64,000 bases of DNA from Lutibacter flavus (GTDB lineage: Bacteria > Bacteroidota > Bacteroidia > Flavobacteriales > Flavobacteriaceae), in contig NZ_FZNX01000004.1 of the NCBI RefSeq assembly GCF_900188355.1, positions 248,001 to 312,000 on the forward strand, written 5' to 3'. The notes under the pieces are model-generated. The model saw only the letters and a program-made list of their open reading frames with translations, was not told the origin of the DNA and made no database searches. Shown piece by piece: positions 6,692 through 33,249 of the stretch (the first letter of the stretch is position 1; each line of letters starts with the position of its first letter). The translations under genes were made by a program, and so were the position numbers.

Positions 6692-6754
6692 ATATTAATA
6701 ATTAAAGTAATAATTTTAAAAAGATATAAAGTAATCGGTATAAAAAGAAAATTA

Positions 6755-6961
6755 ATGAAAACGATTTTAAAATCAGAAATCACTTGTCCTAATTGTGGTC
6801 ATAAAAAAGAAGAAGATATGCCAACAAATGCTTGTCAATTCTTTTATGAATGTGAGAATTGCAAAACAGTTCTCAAACCAAGAGAAGGTGATTGTTGTGT
6901 GTATTGCTCATATGGAACAGTTCCTTGTCCACCAATTCAACAAAACAAAAGTTGTTGTTAA
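6755..6961 (+). CDS. Small GDCCVxC-domain cysteine-rich protein
   Basis: This 68-residue protein is recognised by its eponymous GDCCVYC motif (about residues 45-51) and a CPNCGHKKEEDMPT start. It has nine cysteines: a CPNC and CENC pair resembling a zinc ribbon, the GDCCVYC core, and a CPP...SCC end. Members of this small family are commonly encoded beside mercury or zinc/cadmium resistance genes. The role is unknown; metal binding or delivery to the pump is a reasonable inference. It lies 11 bp upstream of the P-type ATPase. A degenerate copy of its C-terminal half lies at 8954-9065. Confidence 0.88.
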   Translation: MKTILKSEITCPNCGHKKEEDMPTNACQFFYECENCKTVLKPREGDCCVYCSYGTVPCPPIQQNKSCC

Positions 6962-6972
6962 AACAAAACTTG

Positions 6973-16200: not shown

Positions 16201-17502
16201 TACAATTTAGAAATACCACCAGAATTAGAAGGTTGGTTTGACAAAGATAAAATTGAAAAGATAATTTTTAATTTGCTGTCTAACGCTTTTAAATACACAC
16301 CTGATAATGGTAAAATTAATTTAGAATTTTTTATTGAAGGTATTCAAACAAAAGTGCTGAATATAAAAGTAGTTAATTCGGGAAAGGGAATCCCAAAAGA
16401 TAAATTAGATTCAATATTTGATCGATTTTTTTTAGCAGACAAAACTGGAGGAGCACCTAGCGATTTATTCAGAACGGGTATTGGGCTATCATATATAAAA
16501 AAATTGGTTACTGTATTAAAGGGAAGGGTAATTGCTGATAGCAAAGAAAATAAACATACAACTTTTAGAGTCTTGTTACCTTGTGGTAAAGATGCTTTTA
16601 ATGATCAGGAATTAGATAATGAAGAAACACAGATATTAATTTCACATCACCTTCAAAATATTCTTGAAGATTCTTATGGAGATGCTGAAGATACTTTTAA
16701 TAAAGTTTCAACACTTGAGGCTATTTTAAATAGAAGAAAAGTAGTATTAATTGTTGAAGATGAAAAAGAAATACAAGCGCTACTCAATGAAATGTTAAAA
16801 GAAGAATATAAAATTCTAACAGCATCTAATGGAGTTGAAGCATTGGAAATTGTTCAGTCTAATATTCCCGATATTATTATTAGTGACGTAATGATGCCAG
16901 AGATGGACGGTTTGGAACTTTGTAGGAAAATTAAAAAGAATATTAAAACATGTCATATTCCCTTTATTTTACTTACAGCTAAGAGCTCTGTAATACATCG
17001 TATTGAAGGATTAGAGAGTGGCGCAAATTCATACATTCCAAAGCCTTTTTATCCTGAACATTTACTAGTAAGAATTCAAAAATTATTAGAAGAAAAAGAA
17101 CTGATTCAAAATCATTTTAAAGAAGGAACGTTTGATGAAAATTTAACGAGTCTTCCAGTTCAACCAGACGAAAAAGATTTTATGCAACAACTACTGGATT
17201 TAATTCAGTCAAATATTAATAATGAAAATCTACAAAGTTCTTTTTTAGAAAAAGAATTAGGAATGAGTAGTTCTCATTTATATCGAAAAATTAAGCAATT
17301 ATTCGGTTTTTCTCCTGGAGATTTAATTCGCACTATTCGATTAAAACACGCTGCAGAATTGTTACAAAAAAGTACCCTAACGGTTTCGGAAGTTTGTTAT
17401 AAATCAGGCTTTAATAATCGATCCTACTTTTACAGAGAGTTTAAAAAGATGTATGACATCACTCCAAAAAATTACCAAATAAAATATAAATCCACTTTTT
17501 AA
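13294..17502 (+). CDS. Hybrid two-component system sensor/regulator (HTCS) of PUL 1
   Basis: This 1402-residue protein combines sensing and transcription control in one chain. Order: signal or lipoprotein leader (lipobox VISC, C18), two-component-propeller repeats (about 60-740), Y_Y_Y domain (about 750-820), one membrane helix (about 826-848), HisKA with H881 in AHEFQTPLTL, HATPase (about 990-1110), a response-regulator receiver with D1198 in SDVMMPEMDG, and an AraC-type helix-turn-helix (about 1300-1402). It should bind an oligosaccharide in the periplasm and activate the susCD operon downstream. The start is TTG: an in-frame stop lies just upstream and no other start preserves the leader. 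The leader cysteine is odd for an HTCS, which usually has a plain signal peptide. Confidence 0.93.
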   Translation: MKTKILFFAILTSLVISCNNKQASIDLSITPSNLQLDVNVEINDTTNLNFEESPKNLEVNYFIEQLDNTKGLSNSSVNTIFQDSENLLWIGTWDGLNRYDGGNFKIFRPELANENSLSNQVILKIGEDNKGQIWVLTMHGINRYDKKNDIFKRFYFSRKNDPPLTESEFNIAFDASKRVFCMVKDWGIGFFDGTNFQLLKANKLPKNSVKKMEFLSTGELLILFENNQLYKVVLDTIEDKITILQVELVLDNIREFGILTNQKICIISNTEDFEIFSLQDKSKQKINGTGLQKIIGQTTEGVVVSNKSDYFLINNTGATIDKLWLKHLKNQKITTLTQGSENIIWTGTDGDGIFKMYPLRKSFNLISKTKVPELDGGIVRSFLKDEGNSFWVGTKGKGLFRFPYNFYENLNEPLQHETFNESNSLINNAVFSLSKGKDNLIFIGTDGVGITIYDLKKSKLIDWLEIEGNEKCELFKSTYAIYQDENGFIWLGTNGYGMIRFKIERSGDKLKVTDFKRYLADNGLDGSISSNIIYSIVPKNEHELWIGTRLGGLNLFNKESGLFKAYKNNKNNQKSLSSNDILCLNIDSNDRLWIGTSFGLNLLEDFEKEDKAVFKSFTVKEGLPNNTIHGIVSDKKSNLWISTNFGLSNFIVDKSKFINYTTNEGLQNNEFADGAYYQDLKSDFVFMGGIKGFNYFLPSKIEESTVVPNILIDKISGQNQEVPYYQGLVVSPNSKIVPSIVLEHNQNFFDVELAALTFINSEKCEYSYKLNNFDEDWKTINNRRIISFTNVPKGAYSLWIKWSNSDGVWSQPVHAIDIRVNPVYWQSTVAFMLYAILLILFILFVLSYYNKQQSLRQNIIFQKREEEIHQNKLNFFTNIAHEFQTPLTLIVGPVQKLSESIDINEKNKRFIKMIQRNSSRLLFLTQQLLEFRKAESDYLEVSVKHFDLVNLVEQIAELFDEWALQKNINYNLEIPPELEGWFDKDKIEKIIFNLLSNAFKYTPDNGKINLEFFIEGIQTKVLNIKVVNSGKGIPKDKLDSIFDRFFLADKTGGAPSDLFRTGIGLSYIKKLVTVLKGRVIADSKENKHTTFRVLLPCGKDAFNDQELDNEETQILISHHLQNILEDSYGDAEDTFNKVSTLEAILNRRKVVLIVEDEKEIQALLNEMLKEEYKILTASNGVEALEIVQSNIPDIIISDVMMPEMDGLELCRKIKKNIKTCHIPFILLTAKSSVIHRIEGLESGANSYIPKPFYPEHLLVRIQKLLEEKELIQNHFKEGTFDENLTSLPVQPDEKDFMQQLLDLIQSNINNENLQSSFLEKELGMSSSHLYRKIKQLFGFSPGDLIRTIRLKHAAELLQKSTLTVSEVCYKSGFNNRSYFYREFKKMYDITPKNYQIKYKSTF

Positions 17503-17656: not shown

Positions 17657-17707
17657 ATGAAAAAAACAAATCTATTTATGAACCAATTAAATACATTATT
17701 ATGGTAA
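17657..17707 (+). other. 16-codon leader frame overlapping the susC start
   Basis: ATG at 17657 opens a frame reading MKKTNLFMNQLNTLLW that stops at 17705-17707, overlapping the susC ATG (17701) in another frame. It could be a coupled leader peptide or chance. It also looks like a normal signal-peptide start, so a one-base shift, by mutation or sequence error, might have separated it from susC. Confidence 0.25.
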
Positions 17708-20700
17708 AAAAACATTTTATTTATAACTTGTTATTTGTTGCAATGTTACTTTTTGGAAGTTCGTTAATTGCACAAACAATTACAGGTGTGGTAACCGATG
17801 CTTCTGGTGCCTTGCCAGGAGTAAATATAGTAGAAAAAGGAACTAATAATGGAACTTCAACTGATTTTGACGGAAAATATACACTAACAAGTGTAACAAC
17901 AAATCCAATTTTAGTTTTCAGTTATGTAGGATATATAAAAAAAGAGGTTCCTGTAAATGGAATGAGCCAAATTGATGTTGTTTTACTTGAAGATTCACAA
18001 TCATTGGATGAAGTTGTACTTGTTGGATATTCATCAAGAAAAAAATCTACCTTAACGGGAGCTGTTTCAATAGTTGATATGGCGGATCTTGAAAAAACAA
18101 GGGTTACAAATGTTGCTCAAGCCTTGCAAGGGCAAGTAGCAGGTGTACAAGTTACCTCAAGTACTGGTGCGCCTGGTGATCCTATTGAAGTTAGAATTCG
18201 TGGGGAAGGAACAATAGGAAATAACAATCCATTATATGTAGTGGATGGAATTCCGTCAAGGGATATCAGTTTTTTAAATCAGGCAGATATTAAAACAATG
18301 ACAGTTTTAAAAGATGCTTCGGCTGCTGCAATTTATGGATCAAGAGCTTCTGGTGGTGTGGTGTTGATTACTACAAAAAGTGGGGTAGTAGGAAAAACAA
18401 GTATTGATGTAAGTTATTTTACAGGAATGCAAAACGCCTCGAATCTTCCAAACATGTTAAATGCAGAACAGTACATGAATACTGTCGAAAAAGCGTGGAA
18501 CAATTCAGACAGGTCAGGTAACAATCCATATACTGCAGATAAAGGTAGAGCTGATTTTTCTAATACAGACTGGTTAAATGAATTGTTTGAAACTGGAAAA
18601 TCTCAAAATTTACAATTAACAGCTAGTGGAGGTAGTGATAAAGTTCAATTCTTAATGTCTTTGGGTTATTATGGACAAGATGGAATTGTAGTTTATGACA
18701 ATGATAAATACCAAAAATTAAATTATAGAACTAATATAAATGCCAATATAACTGATCGTTTCAAAATTGGAACAAATCTTCAGTTATCATATGCTACACA
18801 AGATAAATTATCTTCAAAAGGAGATGCGCCAGGTATTATAAGACATGCATTGTTAAGACCTCCAGTAATTGGAGTTTACAAAGATGTAAATGACCCTACT
18901 TATTCTGTGGAGGATCCATTTACGGATTTACCATTTTATGTACATAATGATAGAGATAATGGAGGATGGGAAAGTGATAAATATGAATGGGCTTCAAATC
19001 CTATTGCATTAGCCTATTTTACGGATGATGTTAGAAAGGATTTTAGAACATTTGGAAATGTGTATGCAGAATATTCTTTTTTGAAAGATAAAGAGTTGAA
19101 ATTTAGAACCAACATTGGGGTTGATTTATCATTTATTCATAACAAATCGTTTGGAGAAAATTATGGTGATGACGATGGTGGAGGTAATGATACCGATCAA
19201 GGATTGGGAAGACAAAATCGACCAAATAATTTGAATGAAGAAAGAGGTGAATCACGTACAATTACTTTCAACAATACCTTAAATTATACTAAAGTATTTA
19301 ATGATAAACATGACCTGAGTTTACTTGCAGGAACTGAATTTATTGATAATTACAGTTCTTCAATTGGTGCTAGCAGAGCTCGTTTTGATATTACAGATGA
19401 TACATTTAGATATATTGATTACGGTGGTACATCTGCCGATTTATGGAATGGAGGAAGTGCATCAGAATGGTCATTGTTTTCTTTGTTTGGATCAGCTTCT
19501 TATGTGTTTTCTGACAAATATATGGTTACAGCAAATATGAGAGCTGATGCTTCTTCACGTTTTTCAGAAAAGAATCGTTGGGGATATTTCCCTTCTGTTT
19601 CTGCTGGATGGAAAATCTCGGATGAAGACTTCATGAAAGATGTTAATTGGATCTCTAATTTAAAATTAAGAACAGGTTGGGGTAAATTGGGGAACCAAGA
19701 GATTGATAATTATGCTTTTTTAACTTTAATTAGTCAAACAGATGGTAAAGTTGTGGTGAATCGTTATGGAAATGAGGATTTAAAATGGGAAAGTTCTGCA
19801 TCAACAAACATTGGTGTTGATTTAGGTTTATTAAACAATAAATTGGCCATAACTGCAGAATATTTTGTAAAAAATACAACGGATATTTTATTGCCAATTG
19901 GTTTGCCAAGTATTGTTGGAAATGTAGCTCCTACTATTGTAAATGCAGGAGAAGTTAGCAACAAAGGATTTGAACTTTCTGTAAATTATAGAAATTCTGA
20001 CAAAGAATTTAAATACAGTGTGAATGCAAATTTAGGAACATTGACTAACAATGTTGAAAAATTGCATCCAAATGTACCTAGCCTTATTGGGCAGGTAACA
20101 AAAACAGAAGTAGGGCAATCCTTAAATGCTTATTATGGATATAAAATGGTTGGGATATACCAAAATCAGAATGAAATTGATAGCTATTTAGGTGGTACAT
20201 TAAATCCTAATGTAAAACCTGGGGATATTAAATTTGAAGATTTAAATAATGATGGGATAATCAACTCTGACGACAGAAAATTTATTGGAAGTCCAATACC
20301 TGATCTTACTTATGGAATTTCTTTTTCATCATCATATAAAGATTTTGATTTTTCTTTTCTTTTTCAAGGTGTAGAAGGAGTAGACAGATACAATGATGCA
20401 AAAAAAATATTAGATTATGATACGCGTCCTTTTAATTATACTACAAATATTTTAGGAGCTTGGGATGGTGAAGGAAGCAGTAATACAATACCTAGAGTTG
20501 CATTTGAAGACAATGGAAGTAGCAAAGTATCTAGTATTTTTGTAGAGGATGCATCTTATCTTCGACTTAAAAATGTTGAAATTGGATATACTTTAAAACC
20601 TATAAAGGGCATTCAGGACGTTCGCTTTTATGTATCTGGTCAAAATCTATTTACATCAACAAATTATTCAGGATTAGATCCAGAATCAACAGATTTAATG

Positions 20701-20760
20701 GATATGGGAACCTATCCGTCATCAACTTCGGTTTTGTTTGGCGTAAATCTTAAGTTTTAA
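17701..20760 (+). CDS. SusC/RagA-family TonB-dependent oligosaccharide transporter (PUL 1)
   Basis: The 1019-residue outer membrane protein has a signal peptide ending at LIAQ, a CarboxypepD_reg-like domain (about 25-105), a plug domain (about 115-225, with LKDASAAAIYGSRASGGVV) and a 22-strand barrel. It ends in the usual aromatic residue (GVNLKF). It should form the import channel for the oligosaccharides of PUL 1, with the SusD partner as lid. SusD starts 19 bp downstream. Transcription probably depends on the HTCS encoded upstream, through the repeats at 17541-17569. Substrate specificity cannot be read from the sequence. Confidence 0.96.
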   Translation: MVKKHFIYNLLFVAMLLFGSSLIAQTITGVVTDASGALPGVNIVEKGTNNGTSTDFDGKYTLTSVTTNPILVFSYVGYIKKEVPVNGMSQIDVVLLEDSQSLDEVVLVGYSSRKKSTLTGAVSIVDMADLEKTRVTNVAQALQGQVAGVQVTSSTGAPGDPIEVRIRGEGTIGNNNPLYVVDGIPSRDISFLNQADIKTMTVLKDASAAAIYGSRASGGVVLITTKSGVVGKTSIDVSYFTGMQNASNLPNMLNAEQYMNTVEKAWNNSDRSGNNPYTADKGRADFSNTDWLNELFETGKSQNLQLTASGGSDKVQFLMSLGYYGQDGIVVYDNDKYQKLNYRTNINANITDRFKIGTNLQLSYATQDKLSSKGDAPGIIRHALLRPPVIGVYKDVNDPTYSVEDPFTDLPFYVHNDRDNGGWESDKYEWASNPIALAYFTDDVRKDFRTFGNVYAEYSFLKDKELKFRTNIGVDLSFIHNKSFGENYGDDDGGGNDTDQGLGRQNRPNNLNEERGESRTITFNNTLNYTKVFNDKHDLSLLAGTEFIDNYSSSIGASRARFDITDDTFRYIDYGGTSADLWNGGSASEWSLFSLFGSASYVFSDKYMVTANMRADASSRFSEKNRWGYFPSVSAGWKISDEDFMKDVNWISNLKLRTGWGKLGNQEIDNYAFLTLISQTDGKVVVNRYGNEDLKWESSASTNIGVDLGLLNNKLAITAEYFVKNTTDILLPIGLPSIVGNVAPTIVNAGEVSNKGFELSVNYRNSDKEFKYSVNANLGTLTNNVEKLHPNVPSLIGQVTKTEVGQSLNAYYGYKMVGIYQNQNEIDSYLGGTLNPNVKPGDIKFEDLNNDGIINSDDRKFIGSPIPDLTYGISFSSSYKDFDFSFLFQGVEGVDRYNDAKKILDYDTRPFNYTTNILGAWDGEGSSNTIPRVAFEDNGSSKVSSIFVEDASYLRLKNVEIGYTLKPIKGIQDVRFYVSGQNLFTSTNYSGLDPESTDLMDMGTYPSSTSVLFGVNLKF

Positions 20761-20779: not shown

Positions 20780-22267
20780 ATGAAAACAATATATAATAGT
20801 ATAATCTTAGTATTCTTAATTGCAACTTTTATAAGCTGTAATGATGAATTAACACAGGATCCAATAGGGCTACTTACCTTAGACCAGATTGATGCAAACC
20901 CTACAATAAATACGTTAGAATCTTCAGTAAGTTCATCATACCAACTTCTTGCAAGTAGTTTGAATCTTATTGGAAATTGGGATTGGGACGGAGGAGCAGT
21001 GCTTAGAAATGATTTTATTTTACAAGACATTGCTTCTAATGATATGAATAAAAAATGGAATCCAGATGGTGATCAGGCTTGGATGGATGAATTAAGTAAT
21101 TTTAGTTTTACTCCTTCCAATGGAGCATTTAACGGAATTTGGTTGTATGATTATGAAGGTATCAATAGAGTGAACCTTGCCATAAGTTATTTAACAAATA
21201 CGGAAATAACTCAAATGGTTGGAATTAGTGATTCTAGAAAAAATCAACTATTAGGAGAAGCTTATTTTTTACGTGCTTTTTACTATTTTGATTTAGTGAA
21301 TAATTTTGGTGATGTACCATTATTAACAGCACCTTTACAGTCATTTGAAGAAGCTTTTGATGTAGCGGTTAGAGTACCGTCTGATGAAATTTGGATTCAA
21401 ATAAATGCTGATTTATCTGAAGCTAAAACATTATTACCAAATACTAAATATCCAGATCCGTCACAACCATGGAGAGTTTCAAAGGGAGCTGTTATTGGTT
21501 TGCAAGCTAAAGCAGCATTGTATAATGAAAACTGGTCTGAAGTAGTTTCATTGGTATCTGAATTGGAAGCACTTGGTTTTTACAGTTTAAATGCAAATTA
21601 TTTCGATAGTTTTGATGTAAGTAAAGAATTTTCTGACGATGAGGTGATTTTTGCGTATGATCACGTTTCTAGTCAAAACCCACGAAACGGTAACGGACTT
21701 TGTGCCTTAGTCGGTTGGGGATTTATAGCTCCAAGTGATGACTTTATAAATTCTTTTGAAGCAAATGATCCAAGGTTATTGTATACCGTAGATGTACCGA
21801 ATCAAAATGTTTCAAAAATTTTAGGAAATACTGTTGGGGATAACAAAGGGAATGACGATTCACCAAGCAATAAAATATTTATGCGGTATGCAGATGTGCT
21901 ACTTTGGAAGGCAGAAGCTTTAAATGAAAATGGAGACTATGCTGGTGCAGTTGCAATAATCAATCAAATAAGATCAAGAGCAAGAACCAGTCCTACTGCA
22001 GATGGTTCTATGATTCCTGCAGGAACATTGCCAAACAGAGGAAGTTCAACAAGTGCCTCAGAAATTAAAGGGTGGTTAATGCATGAAAGAAGAGTAGAAT
22101 TGGGCTTTGAGTCTCAAAGATTTAACGATTTAAAAAGATGGGAAACGGCAAAAACAGTGCTGACTTCACTTGGAAGAAATTTTCAAGACCATAATTATGT
22201 ATACCCAATTCCACAAGGGGAAGTCGATAAGTCTGGTGGAACAATTACGCAAAATGTTGGTTATTAA
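20780..22267 (+). CDS. SusD/RagB-family surface glycan-binding lipoprotein (PUL 1)
   Basis: The 495-residue protein has a lipoprotein leader with lipobox FISC (C20). The TPR-rich SusD fold shows in the N-terminal half (GEAYFLRAFYYFDLVNNFGDVPL, about 155-177, the family hallmark) and at the C-terminus (LMHERRVELGFESQRFNDLKRW, about 435-456). It forms the lid of the SusC channel encoded just upstream. The paired genes are followed by a strong terminator at 22309-22350, so susCD can form their own transcript. Which glycan it binds is not evident. Confidence 0.96.
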   Translation: MKTIYNSIILVFLIATFISCNDELTQDPIGLLTLDQIDANPTINTLESSVSSSYQLLASSLNLIGNWDWDGGAVLRNDFILQDIASNDMNKKWNPDGDQAWMDELSNFSFTPSNGAFNGIWLYDYEGINRVNLAISYLTNTEITQMVGISDSRKNQLLGEAYFLRAFYYFDLVNNFGDVPLLTAPLQSFEEAFDVAVRVPSDEIWIQINADLSEAKTLLPNTKYPDPSQPWRVSKGAVIGLQAKAALYNENWSEVVSLVSELEALGFYSLNANYFDSFDVSKEFSDDEVIFAYDHVSSQNPRNGNGLCALVGWGFIAPSDDFINSFEANDPRLLYTVDVPNQNVSKILGNTVGDNKGNDDSPSNKIFMRYADVLLWKAEALNENGDYAGAVAIINQIRSRARTSPTADGSMIPAGTLPNRGSSTSASEIKGWLMHERRVELGFESQRFNDLKRWETAKTVLTSLGRNFQDHNYVYPIPQGEVDKSGGTITQNVGY

Positions 22268-22401: not shown

Positions 22402-23451
22402 ATGACAGATATTGCAAATCGATATAAACAAAATCCTTTATTAGCTCCCAAAGATTTAAAACCTAGTAATGATAACATGATTATTGAATGTTTATTGAAT
22501 CCTGGAGTATTTGAATTTAATGGGCAAATTGGTCTTTTAGTGCGTGTAGCAGAAAGGACAGTTCAAAATGAGGGAATGCTATCTGTTCCTATTTATAACA
22601 ACAAAGGAAGTATTGAAATTTTAAACTTTAAGTTAGATGATCCGAAATTAGATGCTTCAGATGCAAGAGTCATCAACTATGATGGAATGGATTATTTAAC
22701 AACAATTTCTCATTTAAGATTGCTTTTTAGTGAGGACGGAATTAATTTTAAAGAATCAGAAGAATATCCTTCCATTTTTGGTGAAGGAGATTATGAGTCC
22801 TTTGGAATAGAAGATTGCCGGGTTTCTAAAATAGATAACACCTACCATCTTAGCTATACAATGGTTTCACCAAATGGTGTAGGGGTAGGCTTAAGAACAA
22901 CTAAGAATTGGAAAAGTTTTGAGAAAAAAGGAATGATTTTTAGTCCACACAATAAAGATTGTGCCATTTTTGAAGAAAAAATTAATGGAATGTTCTATGC
23001 TTTGCATAGACCTAGTAGCCCTGAATTAGGAGGTAATTACATATGGTTAGCAGAATCACCAGATGGTGTTCATTGGGGGAATCATAAATGTATTGCCAAA
23101 ACACGTGAAGGAAAGTTTGACAGCAAACGATTAGGGGCAGGAGCTGCACCCATAAAAACAGCAAAAGGTTGGTTAGAAATCTACCATGGTGCAACGACAG
23201 AACATAGATATTGTTTAGGTGCTATATTATTAGATTTAAAGGATCCTTCAAAAGTAATTGCAAGATCAGAAGAACCTATTATGGAACCAATTGCGGACTA
23301 TGAACAAACTGGATTTTTTGGAAATGTAGTTTTTACAAATGGTCATAAAGTAGATGGAGATATCGTAAACATATATTATGGAGCATCAGATGAATTTGTT
23401 TGTTCGGCGAGTTTTTCAATTAATAAAATTTTAAAAACACTAGAACAATAA
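22402..23451 (+). CDS. Cytosolic GH130-family mannoside phosphorylase or mannosidase
   Basis: The 349-residue protein has the five-bladed propeller signature of GH130, with the catalytic-region motif GIEDCRV (D138), then HNKDCAIF, LHRPS and ENIYYGASD-type blade motifs (here NIYYGASDE near the C-terminus). GH130 enzymes cleave beta-mannosides, by phosphorolysis (beta-1,4-mannosyl-glucose, beta-1,2-mannobiose) or hydrolysis. There is no signal peptide, so it acts in the cytosol on imported material; a phosphorylase is favoured by that location but is not proven. Related proteins are sometimes misnamed 'pesticidal protein Cry7Aa' in databases. The stop overlaps the start of the MFS gene by one base. 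Confidence 0.9.
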   Translation: MTDIANRYKQNPLLAPKDLKPSNDNMIIECLLNPGVFEFNGQIGLLVRVAERTVQNEGMLSVPIYNNKGSIEILNFKLDDPKLDASDARVINYDGMDYLTTISHLRLLFSEDGINFKESEEYPSIFGEGDYESFGIEDCRVSKIDNTYHLSYTMVSPNGVGVGLRTTKNWKSFEKKGMIFSPHNKDCAIFEEKINGMFYALHRPSSPELGGNYIWLAESPDGVHWGNHKCIAKTREGKFDSKRLGAGAAPIKTAKGWLEIYHGATTEHRYCLGAILLDLKDPSKVIARSEEPIMEPIADYEQTGFFGNVVFTNGHKVDGDIVNIYYGASDEFVCSASFSINKILKTLEQ

Positions 23452-24704
23452 TGAGGAAATTAGGAGGAGTAGGATTAAAAGATTTTACAAGAAGTGCAAA
23501 AATATTGATACTTACAAATACAATTTATGCCTTTGTACTTCCTGTGATTGATATATTTGTAGCATCTTATATTATGAGAAATTCAAATGATCCATCAAAA
23601 GTTATTTTATATCAATTGGCTATTTATGCGGGTATTCCAATTACATTTTTTATAAATGGCTATTTATTAAACAAAATTAATATCAAAAGATTATTTTCTT
23701 TGGGAATGATTTTAAGTGGTGTTTCTATGGTTTTTATGATGTCTTTGAAAGAAATTAATTATACAGGAATAGCGATAGCTGGTTTAATTATGGGAATGTC
23801 TTTTGGTTTATATTGGGCAAATAGAGATTATTTAGTGCTTGCAACAACTAAAGATAAAACTCGAAATTTTTATTATGGCTTAGAAACATTTTTGTATACA
23901 ATTATTGCATCTGTTGTTCCAGTAATGATTGGTTGGTTTTTAATAAGTGGAAATGAGGGTGAAGGTAAAGTTGCCAATGATGGTGTTAATGCAGCTTACA
24001 AGGTGATTACGACCATTGTTTTTGGAATCACAATTTTAGCTTCCATTGTTTTTCATTTTGGAAAATATGAAAAACCCAAGAGTGAAAAATTTTTATATTT
24101 TACATTCCATAACCTCTGGAAAAAAATGCTGCAATTGGCTGTTTTAAAAGGATTGGCGCAAGGGTTTATAGTTACTGCGCCCGCAATGTTGATGATGAAA
24201 TTCTTTAATTCTGAAGGAGCATTAGGTTCGGCAATATCTATTGGGGCAGTTATATCAGCGGTAATAATGCTTATTTTAGGTAAAATATCTAAACCAAAGC
24301 ATAGATTAATAATATTCTCTGTAGGACTTATTTGTTTTTTCTTAGCATCATTTTTTAACGGGCTTCTTTTTAATACAACAGGTGTTATCATATTCATGTT
24401 TTTATTATTAATAGCAAGACCTGTACTGGATATTGCGTATTTCCCAATTCAATTAAAAGTGATAGATATACTTTCAGAAATAGAAAATAGAAATGAATTT
24501 TCTTATATTTTAAATCATGAGTTTGGTTTATTTGTAGGTCGTTTTATTGGAGCCAGCACTTTTTTGGTGATCGCTTTTTATATAAATACTGACATTGCTT
24601 TAAGATATGCATTATTGATTATTGGGGTACTTCAATTACTCTCAATACTTATAGCTAAACAATTAATAAAACAACAAAATACACTTATAAATGAGCGTAA
24701 ATAA
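23451..24704 (+). CDS. MFS transporter of PUL 1
   Basis: The 417-residue inner membrane protein has about 12 predicted helices and a loop with NKINIKRL between helices 2 and 3. It does not carry the clear sugar-porter or GPH signatures seen in the two MFS genes of PUL 2, so it belongs to another MFS subgroup. It is translationally coupled to GH130 (ATGA overlap) and overlaps the next gene by 14 bp. The context says it brings the saccharide cleaved by GH130 into the cytosol. Substrate unknown. Confidence 0.82.
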   Translation: MRKLGGVGLKDFTRSAKILILTNTIYAFVLPVIDIFVASYIMRNSNDPSKVILYQLAIYAGIPITFFINGYLLNKINIKRLFSLGMILSGVSMVFMMSLKEINYTGIAIAGLIMGMSFGLYWANRDYLVLATTKDKTRNFYYGLETFLYTIIASVVPVMIGWFLISGNEGEGKVANDGVNAAYKVITTIVFGITILASIVFHFGKYEKPKSEKFLYFTFHNLWKKMLQLAVLKGLAQGFIVTAPAMLMMKFFNSEGALGSAISIGAVISAVIMLILGKISKPKHRLIIFSVGLICFFLASFFNGLLFNTTGVIIFMFLLLIARPVLDIAYFPIQLKVIDILSEIENRNEFSYILNHEFGLFVGRFIGASTFLVIAFYINTDIALRYALLIIGVLQLLSILIAKQLIKQQNTLINERK

Positions 24705-26439
24705 TAGATATAAAAATATTTTTTTTGGAGTTAGTTATAGTTTATTTCTAATTGCCTGTAGTCCATCTAAATTTGACATAGCATCACCTGTTCAGCAAGA
24801 ATCAATTCATAGAGTTGAAGAGATGCCAAATTTACCACAACCATTTAAAATTCTTGATTTCAATGAAATGGCAAAGAATTATGACAAGTTGGTATATGAC
24901 CCTAATCAAACAGGTGAGTACTGGCCATTAATTTGGAAAGATAATTCTCGTAAGAATATTGATCAAGAAACGTTTGGGATCTATACGGCTATGGGAGATG
25001 TTAGGCAAGGAACTGAACATTATGAAGGTATTTTTCACGAGTCTTTAGCGAGCATAGGATCTGTTTTAGGAGGTAGTTTAGTAGGTATTGATAAATCTCA
25101 ACAAAATGGAGAAAACTATGTTGGAATGCTGAAAAATTATTTCAATTCGGAAACAGAATGGAATATTATGATGAATAATACGTGTCCTGAAGTTGCTCAA
25201 TTAGGAGGAGGTTATGCAAGAGATTGGTGGTACGATGTATATCCAAATGTCATGTTTTATGCAGTAGCTGATTTTTACCCAGAAGAAAAAGGGTATGAAC
25301 CAAGACTTCGCTCTGTTGCCGATAAATTTTATGAAGCTAATGCTGTATTAGATGGGAATTATGCTTATTCCTTTTTTAATTATGCAACTATGGAGCCTAC
25401 AAAAAATTGGATTTGTGCACAAGAAGATGTTGCTGCAGGTCACGCGTTTGTATTATATTCAGCATATCAAAAATTTAAGGAGCCTAAATATTTAGAAGGA
25501 GCAAAATCTTCTTTGGAAGCACTTTTAAATCAAAAGGAGAATCGATTTTATGAAATATTAATGCCATTTGGAGCTTATGTTGCAGCAAGATTGAATGCTG
25601 AGCAAGGAACTAACTATGATTTTTCAAAAATATTAGACTGGACTTTTGATGGTTCATCTGTTTGCAGAGAAGGATGGGGAGTTTTGGTAGATAATTGGAA
25701 TGGTTATGATGTTTCAGGTATTGTTGGAAGTACTGTTGACCATGGAGGATTTGGATTCTTAATGAACACCTATGATACCATGTGGCCGTTAGTTCCTATG
25801 GTACGTTACGATCAACGGTATGCAAATACTATTGGGAAATGGATGTTAAATGCAGCCAATGCATCTCGTTTATTTTACCCTAATGAAATTCCAGATAAAC
25901 ACCAAACTATTCCTGAAGAGAAACATCATACTAAAGGTGTAATAGCTTATGAAGGTCTTATAAAAAAAGCACATTATGAGCAATACGAGCATCTTGAAGC
26001 TCCGGTAGCAATTGGAGATGGAATGCATTGGAATAAAGACAATCCAAAAGTATCTCAATTTAGTGTTTATGGAAGCGGACATGTTGGAATTGCAGGTGCA
26101 ATTATTTCTAAAACCAATGTGGAAAACATTCTTCAATTAGATTTATTGGCAACTGATTTTTACAAAGAAAAAGCCTTTCCATCTTACTTATATTACAATC
26201 CAAACCCTGAAGAAAAGGAAGTAACAATTAATACAGGAGAACAAGAATTTAAGATTTATGATGCCATTAAAAGAGCGTTTATTGCTAAAAATGTAAAAGA
26301 TAGTTTTACTTTTAAAATAAGTAAAGAAAACTCATCTTTGTTAGTTTTAGTTCCTCAGGATGCTGAAATTTTAGAAAAAGACGGAAAATTATATGCCAAT
26401 GATATTGTAATTGACTATAGATATTCAGAAGAAAACTAA
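24691..26439 (+). CDS. Lipoprotein of unknown family, probable (alpha/alpha)-barrel carbohydrate-active enzyme
   Basis: I do not recognise a named family for this 582-residue protein. It has a lipobox (LIAC, C23), so it should sit in the periplasm or on the surface. The middle (about 100-430) is helical and rich in aromatic/acidic motifs typical of (alpha/alpha)6 toroid glycosidases and lyases: GGGYARDWWYDVYPN (about 171-185), NWICAQEDVAAGHA (about 240-253), SSVCREGWGVLVDNWNGYD (about 328-346) and VGSTVDHGGFGFLMNTYD (about 350-367). A small beta domain closes the chain (about 495-582). It overlaps the MFS gene by 14 bp and sits among GH130, GH32 and GH13 genes, so a glycan-cleaving role is likely. 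It could be a member of a family unassigned in CAZy. Confidence 0.7.
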   Translation: MSVNNRYKNIFFGVSYSLFLIACSPSKFDIASPVQQESIHRVEEMPNLPQPFKILDFNEMAKNYDKLVYDPNQTGEYWPLIWKDNSRKNIDQETFGIYTAMGDVRQGTEHYEGIFHESLASIGSVLGGSLVGIDKSQQNGENYVGMLKNYFNSETEWNIMMNNTCPEVAQLGGGYARDWWYDVYPNVMFYAVADFYPEEKGYEPRLRSVADKFYEANAVLDGNYAYSFFNYATMEPTKNWICAQEDVAAGHAFVLYSAYQKFKEPKYLEGAKSSLEALLNQKENRFYEILMPFGAYVAARLNAEQGTNYDFSKILDWTFDGSSVCREGWGVLVDNWNGYDVSGIVGSTVDHGGFGFLMNTYDTMWPLVPMVRYDQRYANTIGKWMLNAANASRLFYPNEIPDKHQTIPEEKHHTKGVIAYEGLIKKAHYEQYEHLEAPVAIGDGMHWNKDNPKVSQFSVYGSGHVGIAGAIISKTNVENILQLDLLATDFYKEKAFPSYLYYNPNPEEKEVTINTGEQEFKIYDAIKRAFIAKNVKDSFTFKISKENSSLLVLVPQDAEILEKDGKLYANDIVIDYRYSEEN

Positions 26440-26491
26440 AAATTTATAATTAGGAAGAGGTTGTATAATCTCATTATTAAAAAAGTTGAAT

Positions 26492-28957
26492 ATGTTGAAA
26501 AAAAATACCAAATATCAAATTTTCTTTTTCTTTTTTTTCATTGGAACAAGCATTTTTAGTCAAAATATCAAATTAAAAGTCATCGGAAATGAACAGCAAG
26601 GGTTTAGTGTAGATATTTACAACGGCAATCAGTTATTGTTACATAATACAGAAGAGTTTTCACTAAAAGTTGCAAATCTAGATTTAAGTGAAACAACCGA
26701 AATTGCTGCTTGGAAAGGTTCTGAATGGATAGGAAATGAGCATCAAATAAAATTATCAAAAACAACTTATTTGTCAGATTTTGATTTGAACTTATTAATT
26801 ACGGTTACATATGAAGTTATTAATCAAAATGTAGTTAAAAAAACAGTTGATTTATTTCAATCAGGTATTCCAACTTTGTATTTTACATTGGAAGAAACTT
26901 CAAAACCAGCAGAAGCACCTTCAAAATATGTAACTTTTGAGCACGATGATTTTCCAGGAGGTTTCGCTCACGAAATGAATCCATCAGCAGGTTTTGTAAC
27001 TCCAAATAATTTAGTGGTTGGGTTTTTAATGGATGCGGGTTATAAAAATCACTATACAAGAACAACCAGGCGTCGTTTTAACGGACATGGTGGTGGATTT
27101 GTAGGTATGAGAATGCTACCTGATCCTGCATTAGTAGAAGTAGCAACATTGTTAGAAAGAAAAAACAACCAACATTTTATCAAACAAACATTTGGAGAAC
27201 TATACAATTTAGATACCAGTAAAGAAATGGTTTTAAAGCTTGAGGATGCTTATAAAAATGTTGGAGAGGTTATTATTAACAAAAACGCAGATATAATTAC
27301 ACTTAATGGTGAATCTTCTAATCGCTCAGGAATTGAATTTATAACGCCTTTAACAGACCAAAAAATATATACAGTTTCTTTCTTAGCTAAAGGAAATTCT
27401 CCAATAGCCGTAAAACTTTTTAGAAATAAGAACGGCATAAAAACCGTGGAATTGGAACATGGAATTAAATACATTGATCAATTTCCAATTCAAGAAAATG
27501 AATGGACACTTTTTAAAGGAAGTATTATGGTTCCGTATATAGAGCACGATAGTGTTTCTATGTTTATTGGATCTCAATCAGGAAAAAAATATTCCCTTCA
27601 AATTAAAGATTTACAGATTGTTGAACATCAACCTTTAATACAGCCCTATAATAAAATGAATATGGGAGAGAAGGTAACTAAAACTACCTATGTTTTTGTG
27701 GAACCTTGGGTAAATCATCACGATTTTGTAATTTCTTCACAGGCTCGTTTAGCCGAAGCTAAAGAATTTAAAGGAAGTTTGATAGAGAAAATGTTATATG
27801 CAAATTTCAATATGCTAACTTGGATTACTTCTATACATGATTTTACACCGTTGAATGTGCCTAATATGAACTATGCACCTGATATGTACAATAGAGATTC
27901 ATTTTTTTCGATAGTTTCAAGTTATAATGAAGAATTGAATCTTGAAATATGGAATCAATGGGCAAAAACTCAAAACGAAAAAGGTGCCATAGCAACCATT
28001 ATAACACCATATATGGGTACTGTGGAATTTAAAGACAACGAGGCAACCATTCAATTTTTAATTTGGGCAATGATGAACAAAAGACGTTTTGGCGTAACAC
28101 TGCCAAGAGAGAAAATTGATAAAGCGGTTTCTTATGTACTAAATGAATTTGATGAGAATAGAGATGGTATATGTTCTTCTCATTTTACCTTAAGTCAAAT
28201 TGACATCAATGAATACAATCCAAAAACAAGTGATTTAGCTGTAAACCAAGGAATGTTTGCTATTGCGCTTCGTACCATCAAAGAGTTGGGGTATGATATT
28301 TCAGATTCATATTTGGAAAAAGCTGAAAAAGCATATTTAGACTTTTATGATACAGCAAGAAAGCATATGGTGTTTGACAAAGAATATCCGGATATTATAA
28401 CTTTTACGGACTTAGAACCGGAATTTTTTTCTTTGTGGTTATTTAACAGGCCTATGTTAACTGATGAGATGGTAATTAATCATCTCGAACAAACTCCAAT
28501 TCTTAATAAAGTTTCAAACTCACCTTTTCCAGAATATGGAACAACAGCTCCGGTATGTATAAGATTAACAGATGATGAAAAAGGATATGCTTATTTAACT
28601 TCAGATTATCAGCCTTTTAGAGAGTTTGGAGTATCTAATTATAAAAATGGAGCTAGAGATGGGATGTATTACAACGGTGGAAGTTGGATGCGTGCTGAAT
28701 ATTGCGGATATGTTGTTGGTTTAAGACACGGATGGAAAAAAGCAGAAGCACTTATGGAAAATAGGGCTTGGGCTGAAATTAATCTAAATCCCAATTGGCC
28801 ATATAGCAAAGAATTTATTCCAACAAAATGGGAGACAACAGATTCTTGGTGGCCATCAACACGTGGATTATGCTGGAACGTTTTTATATTGATGGCTAAT
28901 GAGGTTGCTGGATTTCGAACTCCAGAAATGGATCCTGATTTTTCAAAATTTAATTAA
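26492..28957 (+). CDS. Large exported protein of unknown family, probable glycoside hydrolase
   Basis: The ATG at 26492 gives a signal peptide ending near IFSQ; a TTG 6 bp upstream is less likely. The 821-residue chain begins with beta-rich sequence (about 20-400). A helical domain (about 415-810) follows, with APDMYNRDSFFS (about 464-475), SDLAVNQGMFAIALRTIKE (about 577-595), YYNGGSWMRAEYCGY (about 728-742) and TTDSWWPSTRGLCWNVF (about 784-800). That layout, a beta-sandwich followed by an (alpha/alpha)6 barrel, recalls GH15/63/65/78-like enzymes, but I cannot assign a family. It sits 12 bp before the GH32 gene in the same reading frame, with only a stop and four codons between. Periplasmic glycan cleavage is the likely role. 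Confidence 0.68.
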   Translation: MLKKNTKYQIFFFFFFIGTSIFSQNIKLKVIGNEQQGFSVDIYNGNQLLLHNTEEFSLKVANLDLSETTEIAAWKGSEWIGNEHQIKLSKTTYLSDFDLNLLITVTYEVINQNVVKKTVDLFQSGIPTLYFTLEETSKPAEAPSKYVTFEHDDFPGGFAHEMNPSAGFVTPNNLVVGFLMDAGYKNHYTRTTRRRFNGHGGGFVGMRMLPDPALVEVATLLERKNNQHFIKQTFGELYNLDTSKEMVLKLEDAYKNVGEVIINKNADIITLNGESSNRSGIEFITPLTDQKIYTVSFLAKGNSPIAVKLFRNKNGIKTVELEHGIKYIDQFPIQENEWTLFKGSIMVPYIEHDSVSMFIGSQSGKKYSLQIKDLQIVEHQPLIQPYNKMNMGEKVTKTTYVFVEPWVNHHDFVISSQARLAEAKEFKGSLIEKMLYANFNMLTWITSIHDFTPLNVPNMNYAPDMYNRDSFFSIVSSYNEELNLEIWNQWAKTQNEKGAIATIITPYMGTVEFKDNEATIQFLIWAMMNKRRFGVTLPREKIDKAVSYVLNEFDENRDGICSSHFTLSQIDINEYNPKTSDLAVNQGMFAIALRTIKELGYDISDSYLEKAEKAYLDFYDTARKHMVFDKEYPDIITFTDLEPEFFSLWLFNRPMLTDEMVINHLEQTPILNKVSNSPFPEYGTTAPVCIRLTDDEKGYAYLTSDYQPFREFGVSNYKNGARDGMYYNGGSWMRAEYCGYVVGLRHGWKKAEALMENRAWAEINLNPNWPYSKEFIPTKWETTDSWWPSTRGLCWNVFILMANEVAGFRTPEMDPDFSKFN

Positions 28958-28969: not shown

Positions 28970-30586
28970 GTGAATAAAATTAAAGCATGGTTTGTTACGG
29001 TAGCAATAGTAGGGTTCGTTTTATTTACTTTAACAAAGTGTACCAATTTTACTGAAGACAAAAAAACAGTTTCACAAAAAATGGATAGGAAATATACTGA
29101 AGAAGAATTGTATAGGCCAAAATTTCATTTTACACCTAAGCAAAACTGGATGAATGATCCAAACGGTATGTTTTACCTTAATGGAAACTATCATTTATTT
29201 TTTCAACATTACCCTGATTCTGCTGTTTGGGGACCCATGCATTGGGGACATGCAATTAGCACAGATTTAGTAGCATGGAAAGAACAGCCAATAGCATTAT
29301 ATCCAGATGAAAAAGGCTATATTTTTTCAGGAAGTGCTGTAGTAGATATTAATAATACATCTGGCTTTTCAAGTGGTTCAGAAAAACCTGTGATAGCCAT
29401 GTTTACTTATCATGATCCTAAACTGGAAAAAGAAGGTAAAATTGATTATCAAAGTCAAGGAATTGCATATTCTTTAGATGAAGGTATAACATGGGCTAAA
29501 TATTTGGGAAATCCTGTTATAAAAAATCCAGGAATTAAAGATTTTAGAGATCCAAAAATTAGTTGGGATACTATTCATAATCAATGGGTTTTGGTATTAG
29601 CAGCAGGAGATAAATCAATGTTTTATAGTTCTAAAAATTTAAAAGACTGGAAATATTTATCAAATTTCGGCAAAGATATTGGAGCTCATGGAGGTGTTTG
29701 GGAATGTCCTGATTTTTTTCCTATGACTGTGGACGGAACCAATGAAATAAAATGGGTTTTAATTCAAAGTATTGTTTCTGGGGGACCTAATGGAGGAACT
29801 GGAACGCAATATTTTGTTGGAGATTTTAATGGTAAATCTTTTATTCTGGATCCCTTTTTTAAAAAGGACTTAGTTAATGAAAATGTATTTTGGATTGACT
29901 ATGGGAGAGATAATTATGCGGGAGTTACTTGGTCAAATATGCCTGAGAAAGATGGTAGAAAGTTGTTTTTAGGGTGGATGTCAAATTGGGAGTATGCAGA
30001 AAAAGTGCCCACTAACAAATGGCGCAGTAGTATGACAATTGTGCGAGAGCTTAAATTGGTTAAAAATGATGATCACTACAGAATAACATCACAGCCAGTT
30101 AAAGAAATAAATAATTACATTTCAAAATCAATTAAGAAAGGTGATTTTAATGTTGAAGGTGAAACAGTACTTATTACTAAACCAGAACTTGACTTTTCTA
30201 GTTTAGACATTCATTTTAAAATTAAGGATTTACAGAAAGATATTTACACTTTTTCGTTTTTTAATGCTGTTGGAGATTCTTTGAAATTTGGAGTTAACAA
30301 TAAAGAAAAATTCTTCTTTCTTGATAGAATGAAATCAGGAAATATTTCCTTTTCAGATAAATTTGCACCAATAATTTCAATTGCTCCAATTAAGGAAGAA
30401 TTAAAAAATATTGATATTAGAGTACTTTTGGATAAAACTTCAATTGAAATATTTTACAATAATGGAAAAACCGTTATGACAGAACTGTTTTTTCCGAAAA
30501 AACCAATTGAGGCTTTTTCTGCTAAATCTGAAAATTTCAATATTGAATTTGAAGGTATGACTATTAACCAGCTAAAGTTTGACTAA
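28970..30586 (+). CDS. GH32-family beta-fructosidase lipoprotein
   Basis: The 538-residue enzyme cleaves fructofuranosides such as sucrose, levan or inulin oligosaccharides. Catalytic landmarks of GH32 are all present: nucleophile D63 in NWMNDPNG, the transition-state stabiliser in FRDPK (D194) and acid/base E245 in WECPDFF. The propeller is followed by a C-terminal beta-sandwich (about 390-538). A lipobox-like LTKC (C24) suggests anchoring in the periplasm or on the surface. The start is GTG, 12 bp after the preceding stop. Exo- versus endo-action and levan versus inulin preference are not evident. Confidence 0.94.
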   Translation: MNKIKAWFVTVAIVGFVLFTLTKCTNFTEDKKTVSQKMDRKYTEEELYRPKFHFTPKQNWMNDPNGMFYLNGNYHLFFQHYPDSAVWGPMHWGHAISTDLVAWKEQPIALYPDEKGYIFSGSAVVDINNTSGFSSGSEKPVIAMFTYHDPKLEKEGKIDYQSQGIAYSLDEGITWAKYLGNPVIKNPGIKDFRDPKISWDTIHNQWVLVLAAGDKSMFYSSKNLKDWKYLSNFGKDIGAHGGVWECPDFFPMTVDGTNEIKWVLIQSIVSGGPNGGTGTQYFVGDFNGKSFILDPFFKKDLVNENVFWIDYGRDNYAGVTWSNMPEKDGRKLFLGWMSNWEYAEKVPTNKWRSSMTIVRELKLVKNDDHYRITSQPVKEINNYISKSIKKGDFNVEGETVLITKPELDFSSLDIHFKIKDLQKDIYTFSFFNAVGDSLKFGVNNKEKFFFLDRMKSGNISFSDKFAPIISIAPIKEELKNIDIRVLLDKTSIEIFYNNGKTVMTELFFPKKPIEAFSAKSENFNIEFEGMTINQLKFD

Positions 30587-30603: not shown

Positions 30604-32241
30604 ATGAGCAACCTAAAACTAACGGTATTAATTTTATTCATAGGCACCATGTTATCTTGTAATGAAGAAAGAGCAATTGTGTTAGAAAAAACTTGGTGGA
30701 AAGAGACTGTTTTTTATGAAATTTACATGCCTAGTTATAAGGATAGTAATGGTGATGGTTTTAGTGATTTTAAAGGGTTGACTTCAAAATTAGATTACAT
30801 TCAAAATTTAGGAGTTAAAGGTATTTGGTTAACACCATTTCTTCAATCACCAAAAGTAGATAATGGATATGATGTTTCAGATTACTACAAAATTGACTCA
30901 ACGTATGGCTCATTAGAAGATTTTAAATTGTTCTTAAATGAAGCTCATAAAAAAGATATTAAAATAATTATGGATTTAGTGGTAAATCATACTTCCACTG
31001 AATCAAAATGGTTTCAGGAGTCAAAAAAATCAAAAGAAAATCCATATAGAGATTACTATATTTGGAAAGATGAACCAAATAACTGGGAATCATTTTTTGG
31101 AGGATCAGCTTGGGAATTGGACAATACTACAAACCAATATTATTACCATCAATTTGATGTAAAAATGGCTGATCTTAATTGGGAAAATCCAAAAGTTGTT
31201 GAAGAAATTCAAGAAGTAGTGCGATTTTGGTTGAAGTTAGGAGCGGATGGATTTCGATTGGATGTTATAAATTTTTTAACAACTGATGGAATCAATTTAA
31301 ATAATCCAATAAATGAAAAAGGAGAACAGGAGCATCTATATGATATCAATCAAAAAGGTGTAAAAGAAGCCATGAAAATAATGCGGGAAACAGTAAGTGA
31401 ATTTGACAATCGCTTTATTGTTGGTGAAATAGGAAGTGATAAAATTGAGGTATTAAAACAATATCAGGGAACGGAATTATTAGATGTAGTATTCAATTTT
31501 AATTTTGGGAGCATAAAAGAATTTTCAGCAAAACGTGTTTTTGACGAATTGCAAAGCATGGAAAAAAATATGACTAATTTCCCAACGTTATTTTTTGGAA
31601 GCCATGATATGCCTCGTTTAATAAGTAGATTGGCAGAAAACAACCCTGAAAGAGCCGAATCATTAGCCGCATTAATGATTACGGCTAAAGGCATTCCATT
31701 TATTTATTACGGAGAGGAAATTGGAATGGAAAATATAAAAGCCAATTCAATTGATGAAATTAAGGATGTTCAAGGTCGTACACATTATAATTTGTCTAGA
31801 GAAAAAGGTGATTCTGAAGAAAAATCTTTAAGAGTTGGAAATGAGAATAATAGAGATAAATCCAGAAGTCCAATGCAATGGAATGATACTGAATTTGCTG
31901 GTTTTTCAAATATTGCTCCTTGGATTAAAGTAAATTCAAACTATAAACATACAAATGTTACTAGTTTGGAGAAAAATGAAAATTCAATTTTGAATACCTA
32001 TAAAAAATTGATTGCTTTACGAAATTCTCAACCAGTTTTTCAATACGGTAACTATGAGGAATTATCTATTTCAAACAATTGTATATTTTTTATTAGAGAA
32101 TATCAAGGAGATAAGGTTAAATGTTACTTTAATTTTAGCGAATCTTCAATAAAAATTGAATTAAACTTCAATGAAAAAGTACTATTTGGAGAAACAACAA
32201 TTCACCCAAATAATTATTTAATAGTAAAAATAATTAAGTAA
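30604..32241 (+). CDS. GH13-family alpha-glucosidase/alpha-amylase lipoprotein
   Basis: The 545-residue enzyme has a lipobox (MLSC, C19) and the GH13 conserved regions: DLVVNH (I), GFRLDVINF with nucleophile D220 (II), VGEIG with acid/base E275 (III) and GSHDMPR with D335 (IV). Region IV has Ser where most relatives have Asn (NHDxPR). MADLNW (about 188-193) fills the position of the QPDLN element common in oligo-1,6-glucosidase and alpha-glucosidase groups. A short C-terminal beta domain closes the chain. It would hydrolyse alpha-glucosides, possibly including sucrose-like units, next to the GH32 gene 17 bp upstream. Confidence 0.92.
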   Translation: MSNLKLTVLILFIGTMLSCNEERAIVLEKTWWKETVFYEIYMPSYKDSNGDGFSDFKGLTSKLDYIQNLGVKGIWLTPFLQSPKVDNGYDVSDYYKIDSTYGSLEDFKLFLNEAHKKDIKIIMDLVVNHTSTESKWFQESKKSKENPYRDYYIWKDEPNNWESFFGGSAWELDNTTNQYYYHQFDVKMADLNWENPKVVEEIQEVVRFWLKLGADGFRLDVINFLTTDGINLNNPINEKGEQEHLYDINQKGVKEAMKIMRETVSEFDNRFIVGEIGSDKIEVLKQYQGTELLDVVFNFNFGSIKEFSAKRVFDELQSMEKNMTNFPTLFFGSHDMPRLISRLAENNPERAESLAALMITAKGIPFIYYGEEIGMENIKANSIDEIKDVQGRTHYNLSREKGDSEEKSLRVGNENNRDKSRSPMQWNDTEFAGFSNIAPWIKVNSNYKHTNVTSLEKNENSILNTYKKLIALRNSQPVFQYGNYEELSISNNCIFFIREYQGDKVKCYFNFSESSIKIELNFNEKVLFGETTIHPNNYLIVKIIK

Positions 32242-32277: not shown

Positions 32278-33249
32278 ATGCAATTATATCCCTTAAAATT
32301 TCAACCAGTTTACAGTTATCGTATTTGGGGTGGAGATAAGTTAAAAACAGTTTTAAATAAAAATTATAAAGAAGATTCTATAGGTGAATCCTGGGAAATT
32401 TCTGATGTGCCTGAAAATGAAACTGAAGTAGCAGAAGGATTCTTAAAAGGCCAAACCTTAAAACAATTGATGAAGAAGTTTAAAGGTGATTTTGTTGGAA
32501 ATAAAGTATATGATATTTTTGGAAATGATTTTCCTCTATTGATAAAATTTATTGATGCAAAAACACCATTATCTATTCAAGTGCATCCCAGTAATGCATT
32601 GGCAAAAGAACGTCATAATTCATTTGGAAAAAATGAAATGTGGTATGTGATGCAGGCTGAAGATGAAGCAGAATTGATAGTTGGTTTTAATCAGAAAGTT
32701 GAAAAAGAAGTATATGTGAAGCATCTAAATAATGAAACCTTAACTGAGATTTTAAATATTGAAAAAGTTAAAAAAGGAGATGCATTTTATATTCCAACAG
32801 GTAGAGTTCATGCGATAGGAGCAGGTGTTTTATTGGCTGAAATTCAACAAACATCTAATATTACATATCGAATTTACGATTATGATCGAATAGATGCTAA
32901 GACTGGAGAAAAGAGAGAATTACACACAGATTTAGCAATTGATGCAATTGATTTTAATTTTTACGACAGCTATAAAACAAACTATACTAATAAAATAAAT
33001 AGTTCTAGTGAATTAGTTTATTCACCTTATTTTAAAACCAATATTATTACTGTAAAAGGCGTATTAGAAAAAGACTATACAAATCTGGATTCATTTGTGA
33101 TTTATATGTGTGTGGAAGGTGTTTTCAGTATTCAAAGCAATAACAGATTATACAATTTAAAAACAGGTGAAAGCATATTGTTACCGGCAACTACAAAGCA
33201 ACTGAAAATTGAATCAGGCAGTGCAGTTTTACTAGAAATTTATTTATAA
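32278..33249 (+). CDS. manA: Class I mannose-6-phosphate isomerase
   Basis: The 323-residue cytosolic cupin enzyme interconverts mannose-6-phosphate and fructose-6-phosphate. Zinc-site residues are visible: H103 in QVHP (101-104), E120 in KNEMWYVM and H178 in GRVHAIGAG. The short length is that of the compact bacterial class I type. It is the last gene of the PUL 1 run, 36 bp after GH13. It would feed mannose freed by the GH130 pathway into glycolysis, which supports a mannose-containing substrate. A kinase for mannose or fructose is not in the window. Confidence 0.94.
   Translation: MQLYPLKFQPVYSYRIWGGDKLKTVLNKNYKEDSIGESWEISDVPENETEVAEGFLKGQTLKQLMKKFKGDFVGNKVYDIFGNDFPLLIKFIDAKTPLSIQVHPSNALAKERHNSFGKNEMWYVMQAEDEAELIVGFNQKVEKEVYVKHLNNETLTEILNIEKVKKGDAFYIPTGRVHAIGAGVLLAEIQQTSNITYRIYDYDRIDAKTGEKRELHTDLAIDAIDFNFYDSYKTNYTNKINSSSELVYSPYFKTNIITVKGVLEKDYTNLDSFVIYMCVEGVFSIQSNNRLYNLKTGESILLPATTKQLKIESGSAVLLEIYL

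Follow-up and report, generated by a model that had tools for sequence, protein, structure and literature searches.

This analysis concerns a 64,000-nucleotide stretch of the Lutibacter flavus genome (contig NZ_FZNX01000004.1, positions 248,001 to 312,000 of the forward strand, hereafter the window) and, within it, two adjacent genes of unassigned family, P1 and P2, located at the centre of a polysaccharide utilization locus (PUL). A first-pass annotation had described both as exported proteins packed between a major facilitator superfamily (MFS) gene and a glycoside hydrolase (GH) gene of family GH32. The two open reading frames (ORFs) are indeed intact and tightly packed, with the MFS gene on one side and GH32 on the other, and the motifs quoted for them were found in their translations. 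The PUL reading was likewise recovered, with the gene succession hybrid two-component sensor-regulator (HTCS), SusC, SusD, GH130, MFS, P1, P2, GH32, GH13 and cupin, and export agrees with the lipobox-like LIAC of P1 and the signal-peptide-like N terminus of P2. Because close relatives of both occur elsewhere, P1 and P2 were considered real genes. The features of the locus are the following (window coordinates):

13294..17502, + strand: HTCS (Pfam Reg_prop, Y_Y_Y, HisKA, HATPase_c, Response_reg, HTH_18)
17701..20760, + strand: SusC-like TonB-dependent receptor (Pfam)
20780..22267, + strand: SusD-like lipoprotein (NCBIfam SusD model, under its cut-off)
22402..23451, + strand: GH130, predicted cytoplasmic beta-1,2-mannobiose phosphorylase (Pfam 1.1e-48)
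23451..24704, + strand: MFS transporter, putative importer of the P1 product (Pfam MFS_1)
24691..26439, + strand: P1, 582 aa, exported lipoprotein-like, unplaced family, proposed here as a predicted beta-1,2-mannan depolymerase
25039..26019, + strand: span of the P1 candidate catalytic acids (E117 at 25039-25041, E288 at 25552-25554, E421 at 25951-25953, D443 at 26017-26019; D178 in between)
26492..28957, + strand: P2, 821 aa, exported, from ATG 26492 (the ORF opens at TTG 26486, 823 aa)
28970..30586, + strand: GH32 (Pfam)
30604..32241, + strand: GH13 oligo-1,6-glucosidase-like exported lipoprotein (Pfam; PDB 1uok, 403 bits)
32278..33249, + strand: mannose-6-phosphate-isomerase-like (phosphomannose-isomerase-like) cupin (Pfam)

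The claim that neither protein belongs to a known family held within the scope of our comparison, i.e. Pfam, NCBIfam and PDB sequences. No Pfam cut-off was reached by P1 or P2, no NCBIfam match was obtained for either up to E 1, and PDB searches with single sequences and with profiles returned nothing better than E 0.043. Profile comparison detected no relation between the two proteins (P 0.21).

P1 was found in 7 of 199 genomes of the family and 19 of 395 genomes of the phylum (the window's own genome being counted in each), in one further genome of the class (G773) and in 2 of 72,556 plasmid records, both from Persicobacteraceae and with the short form labelled hypothetical in their annotation. 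The search outside Bacteroidota covered plasmid records and viral contigs, and no further relative was found among the latter. P1 is a member of a Bacteroidota protein family that comprises a short form of 568-592 residues, whose N termini are mostly lipobox-like and in some cases a plain signal peptide, and a long form of 1,032-1,083 residues. In the six long forms scanned, of 13 in total, Laminin_G_3 was above its cut-off throughout. Por_Secre_tail was likewise matched in each of the six; L049 falls short of the cut-off, and the five others exceed it, one of them by 0.3 bits. Identity between the P1 of the window and ten long forms is 34-39%. Both forms occur together in one cluster in loci L062 and L146, as would be expected if one acts outside the cell and the other in the periplasm. 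Seven acidic residues (D65, E117, D134, E288, E421, D443 and D489) are invariant in all 33 P1 sequences. The motif GGGYARDWWYDVYPN, earlier suggested as a possible catalytic site, is conserved in its core (D178 and W179 in 32 of 33 sequences, W180 and Y181 in 33 of 33), but its GGGYA portion is absent from the long forms. Judging from this conservation, the candidate catalytic acids are probably among E117, D178, E288, E421 and D443.

The genomic context of P1 was compared across 31 loci, i.e. the 7 family genomes (window's included), 17 further phylum genomes, G773, the two plasmids and loci L002-L005; a weak match in G127 (19.8 bits) and L006, at a contig edge, were left out. GH130 lies in the examined stretch of 29 of them, the two others being L043, which starts at a contig end and for which 16 kb were examined, and L052, an entire 11.6-kb contig. 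The order GH130-MFS-P1 is kept in all 19 loci with a window-type P1. Other neighbours are a window-like SusC (21 loci), P2 (7), GH32 (2), GH13 (8) and GH2 (8). Close orthologues of the window GH130 (at least 66% identity and at least 530 bits, the next best match being at 133 bits) are present in 9 of the 199 family genomes, and all 7 genomes with P1 are among these 9 (one-sided Fisher p 1.6e-11, relatedness ignored).

Among the smallest clusters, the L040 stretch, which ends inside the HTCS gene, holds the end of that gene, SusC, SusD, GH130, MFS and P1, after which come genes for a class I tRNA synthetase and a DksA-like protein; P1 is therefore the only exported candidate enzyme seen there. 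L041, L038 and L058 resemble L040 and are flanked by glycosyltransferase, chaperonin, peptidase or cyclase genes in the part of the flanks that was scanned, and the plasmid cluster L061 comprises, from its annotation, HTCS, GH130, MFS, P1, SusC, SusD and a LamG protein. Of the exported proteins seen in these smallest clusters, P1 alone is predicted to be able to cleave the glycan.

Long-P1 clusters (L043-L052) include a GDE_C/GH94-like protein (c10; 7 loci) and a GH2 bearing mannosidase-type Ig domains (c7; 8 loci); ATP-binding cassette (ABC) importer genes occur in several. The long P1 of L045 adjoins a secreted protein of 1,358 aa (3475-7551), in which scanning revealed five LamG stretches and a type IX secretion system (T9SS) tail; L046 has a homologue of this protein.

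The linkage attacked by this pathway was approached through the partner GH130. The window protein matches Glyco_hydro_130 at 166.3 bits, above the Pfam cut-off of 26, and its best PDB matches are Uhgb_MS (524 bits, 64.9% identity) followed by Lin0857 (333 bits). The available part of PMC8950772 describes Lin0857 as a beta-1,2-mannobiose phosphorylase; Uhgb_MS appears there as a mannoside synthase of mixed linkage, one of whose products is beta-1,2-mannobiose. The title of an Uhgb_MS entry, PDB 9erh, has in its visible part the words 'in complex with 1,2-beta-ma'. The divergent P1 of L042 accompanies a GH130 that matches 3qc2/5a7v (BACOVA_03624, BT3780) at 549-561 bits; between the two lie SusC, SusD, an MFS protein and a protein of the ROK family. 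BT3780 and BACOVA_03624 have been shown to be beta-1,2-mannosidases (PMC4599007, part available). Two different GH130 clades, alike in acting on the beta-1,2-mannosidic linkage, are therefore found paired with P1, and this pairing is the strongest argument for its substrate. The first-pass annotation had left the substrate open among mannans, fructans and alpha-glucans; the gene neighbourhood points to beta-1,2-mannosides for P1.

On this basis we consider it somewhat more probable than not that P1 acts as a glycoside hydrolase, secreted or located in the periplasm, and cuts beta-1,2-mannan or beta-1,2-mannooligosaccharides into short pieces, chiefly mannobiose, which would feed GH130; its action may be endo-beta-1,2-mannanase-like. 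In the pathway whose localisation and order we infer, the HTCS would sense the glycan and SusC/SusD would carry its chains into the periplasm, where the short P1 would cleave them, the long P1 (about 1,050 residues, LamG/T9SS) acting outside the cell. The MFS protein would import the P1 product, GH130 would split it with phosphate into mannose-1-phosphate and mannose, and the isomerase-like cupin could channel mannose into central metabolism. P2, GH13 and GH32 would be optional and would probably trim other sugars of the natural glycan.

Several observations weigh against this proposal. Two of the nine genomes with a close GH130 (G014 and G127) lack P1, the MFS partner being likewise missing from the stretch; a SusC-like gene was located some 5 kb away in G127. 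GH2 could share the work in 8 of the 31 loci, all with a long P1, and the smallest clusters were judged from limited stretches, some without the regulator end. The available part of PMC8950772 terms Uhgb_MS a mannoside synthase of mixed linkage and reports that zobellia_231, from a marine flavobacterium, is a beta-1,3-mannooligosaccharide phosphorylase. The window GH130 stays under the NCBIfam equivalog cut-offs for BtaManbiosPhlase (419 versus 550 bits) and beta-1,2-mannobiose phosphorylase (201.4 versus 450 bits). A lysine, K199 of BT3780, has been tied to beta-1,2 specificity (PMC4599007, part available); 30 of 32 GH130s, in an alignment without members of 250 residues or fewer, have a lysine in the NKD column, a MAFFT column that is off the lysine taken for K199 in the hydrolase. 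Within the habitats of these bacteria, no beta-1,2-mannan source was found. Finally, the structural model of P1 was too poor to settle its fold (AlphaFold mean predicted local distance difference test, pLDDT, 39.5), no Foldseek match to it was obtained at E 0.001 or better, and the best weak similarities of P1 are to epimerases rather than hydrolases, an unrelated pair of profiles having scored as well as the AGE epimerases.

Other explanations of P1 were weighed. P1 could depolymerise another beta-mannoside, e.g. a beta-1,3-linked one or a mixed mannose heteroglycan, with a GH130 of that specificity: such GH130s exist (PMC8950772, part available), and GH13, GH32 and P2 in some P1 clusters suggest a heteroglycan. 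We regard this as unlikely, though the most serious of the alternatives, since the closest solved relatives of the window GH130 are Uhgb_MS and Lin0857, the distinct clade represented in L042 was proven beta-1,2-specific (PMC4599007, part available) and also pairs with P1, and no further sugar enzyme is visible in the examined stretches of the smallest clusters. Identity as a polysaccharide lyase, or as a glycan binder without catalytic function, would fit a lipoprotein located near SusD with no match to a catalytic family; it appears very improbable given the seven acids invariant across 33 sequences, a mannose homopolymer offering no uronic acid to a lyase, and the separate LamG proteins of L055, L061 and L062 being likelier binders.

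Alternatively, P1 might belong to the sugar epimerases or isomerases of the AGE or C5-epimerase type and edit mannosides before phosphorolysis, depolymerisation taking place elsewhere or being unneeded. Its best Pfam match is C5-epim_C (PF06662), at 15.9 bits versus a cut-off of 23.3; with hmmscan, weak matches to this domain occur in 11 of 27 P1 members (best E 3.1e-4, and 21.7 bits for the P1 of G125) and to LANC_like in 4. Profile comparison with hhalign gave P 3.5e-4 for C5-epimerases and P 0.0074 over 161 columns for AGE epimerases (PF07221), versus 0.1 to 0.28 for seven unrelated families used as controls and 0.38 for the c10 proteins. However, the C5-epimerase similarity spans only 43 columns, PF07221 has no hmmscan match at E 1 in the 27 members, and the unrelated pair P2 versus SusC reached P 0.0041 in the same comparison, which puts the AGE value, taken by itself, within the range of chance. 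The non-significant Foldseek matches listed for P1 include cellobiose 2-epimerase and mannose isomerase. Against an epimerase stand the export of P1, often with a lipobox, the LamG and T9SS sorting domains of the long form, which are the dress of a depolymerase, and the smallest clusters, which would then show no depolymerase; we judge this explanation quite improbable, less so than a lyase or a binder.

The same comparisons bear on the fold. The first-pass annotation had read both proteins as helical toroids and called for structure prediction and Foldseek; the models, built on alignments of five rows so that Foldseek results on them are hints only, reached a mean pLDDT of 39.5 for P1 and 34.7 for P2, with no match at E 0.001 for either. 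For P1 the toroid is weakly favoured by the epimerase profiles, and the best-modelled regions are a helical one (residues 251-280) and a beta one (residues 511-570). Toroid enzymes (GH76, GH88, cellobiose 2-epimerase, GH9 cellulases) recur among its non-significant matches (50 of 745 listed), as do GH27/GH13 enzymes over about 60-70 residues. An alpha/alpha toroid followed by a C-terminal beta domain, though weakly supported, is taken as the likely architecture of P1. GH144 enzymes perform an analogous task on a beta-1,2-linked chain with an alpha/alpha fold. PF10091, which we take as a proxy for the GH144 endo-beta-1,2-glucanases, shows no sequence or profile relation to P1 (no hmmscan match at E 1 in the 27 members; hhalign P 0.098).

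P2 is much rarer. It is present in 3 of 395 phylum genomes (window's own included) and in five named loci, and is known in ten loci altogether: the window, L002-L006, L056, L057, L059 and L060, of which L006 and L057 are incomplete. Seven of the ten genes lie in P1 clusters, L006 being cut. L059 has P2 with two GH130s and GH2 genes and no P1 in the stretch, L060 has P2 without any of these, and the genomes behind both are not among the P1 matches of the 395-genome phylum search. Between the window and Labilibaculum, P2 is 90% identical and P1 only 54%; P2 was therefore probably transferred separately from P1. Its position within the cluster also differs between species (L057 versus L002/L005), a sign of separate transfer.

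We treat P2 as an accessory protein of uncertain role. Its AlphaFold model is beta-rich to about residue 407 and helical beyond. CBM_4_9 scored 19.6 bits versus a cut-off of 25.9; this domain was matched below threshold in six of nine members, in which no other Pfam match was seen at E 1. The best PDB sequence match (E 0.043) aligns the carbohydrate-binding domain of a hyaluronate lyase with residues 257-316. We tentatively consider, at slightly less than even confidence, that P2 is a predicted alpha/alpha six-hairpin exo-glycosidase that would remove side-chain or terminal sugars from the same glycan. The succession of a beta-rich half and a helical half in the low-confidence model would fit, as would the presence of most P2 genes in P1 clusters or, in L059, near GH130 and GH2 genes, and the YYNGGSW block of P2 aligns, not significantly, with the NGG-W block of the c10 proteins. 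Conversely, no significant Pfam, profile or fold match to six-hairpin glycosidases (GDE_C, GH94, GH116) was obtained, and the P2 of L060 lacks such neighbours. The c10 profile gave P 0.017 only, and we leave this kinship open because the unrelated SusC profile scored better.

The window PUL shares with the known beta-1,2-mannoside phosphorylase systems (Lin0857, Uhgb_MS, Teth514_1788/1789) a cytoplasmic finishing enzyme of class GH130. The Thermoanaerobacter cluster differs in having ABC transport, a GH5 and two hypothetical proteins (PMC4264767, part available). The yeast-mannan PULs of BT3780 and BACOVA_03624 resemble L042, in which P1 is paired with a close relative of these beta-1,2-mannosidases; the latter are exo-acting and remove beta-1,2 caps from alpha-mannan (PMC4599007, part available), whereas the target of the P1 cluster seems to be the beta-1,2 chain as such. 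Compared with the C5-epimerase C-terminal domain and AGE epimerases, which P1 resembles weakly in helical stretches, P1 differs in its export and in its clustering with GH130. According to the available part of PMC4264767, beta-1,2-mannosides are present in Candida, in some bacterial O-antigens and in trypanosomatid reserves. A marine euglenozoan was also considered as the glycan source and dropped because the Diplonema paper, in its available part, reports paramylon (PMC10161547).

Elsewhere in the window, a tyrosine recombinase gene (10583-11914, - strand) with Arm-DNA-bind_5 and phage integrase domains lies directly upstream of the PUL, and ARAGORN found no tRNA gene in the window; the recombinase gene and the plasmid copies of the cluster are hints of its mobility. 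A second PUL (36512-62127) with GH16, GH30, two GH3 and three GH17-like genes (two marginally under cut-off) looks like a laminarin/beta-1,3-glucan locus and includes a 1,154-aa protein (48148-51612) without a Pfam match at 1e-5.

Finishing enzymes for beta-1,2-mannosides are known, but the first chain-cutting enzyme was not found in the literature searched: no endo-beta-1,2-mannanase appeared in that search, which was made mostly without subscription papers and preprints and in which '2-mannanase' papers were seen by title and the start of the abstract. Going further than the hydrolase proposal and with correspondingly less assurance, we suggest that P1 may found a new GH family devoted to beta-1,2-mannan depolymerisation and, with GH130, MFS and SusC/D, may make up a compact, mobile route for the use of storage-type mannan, in which a short form in the periplasm and a long, secreted one would work in series. 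A dedicated depolymerase, if confirmed, would provide a tool to prepare and analyse beta-1,2-mannosides, would account for a set of Bacteroidota clusters that lack annotation and would mean that beta-1,2-mannan has an unrecognised source in the habitat of these bacteria.

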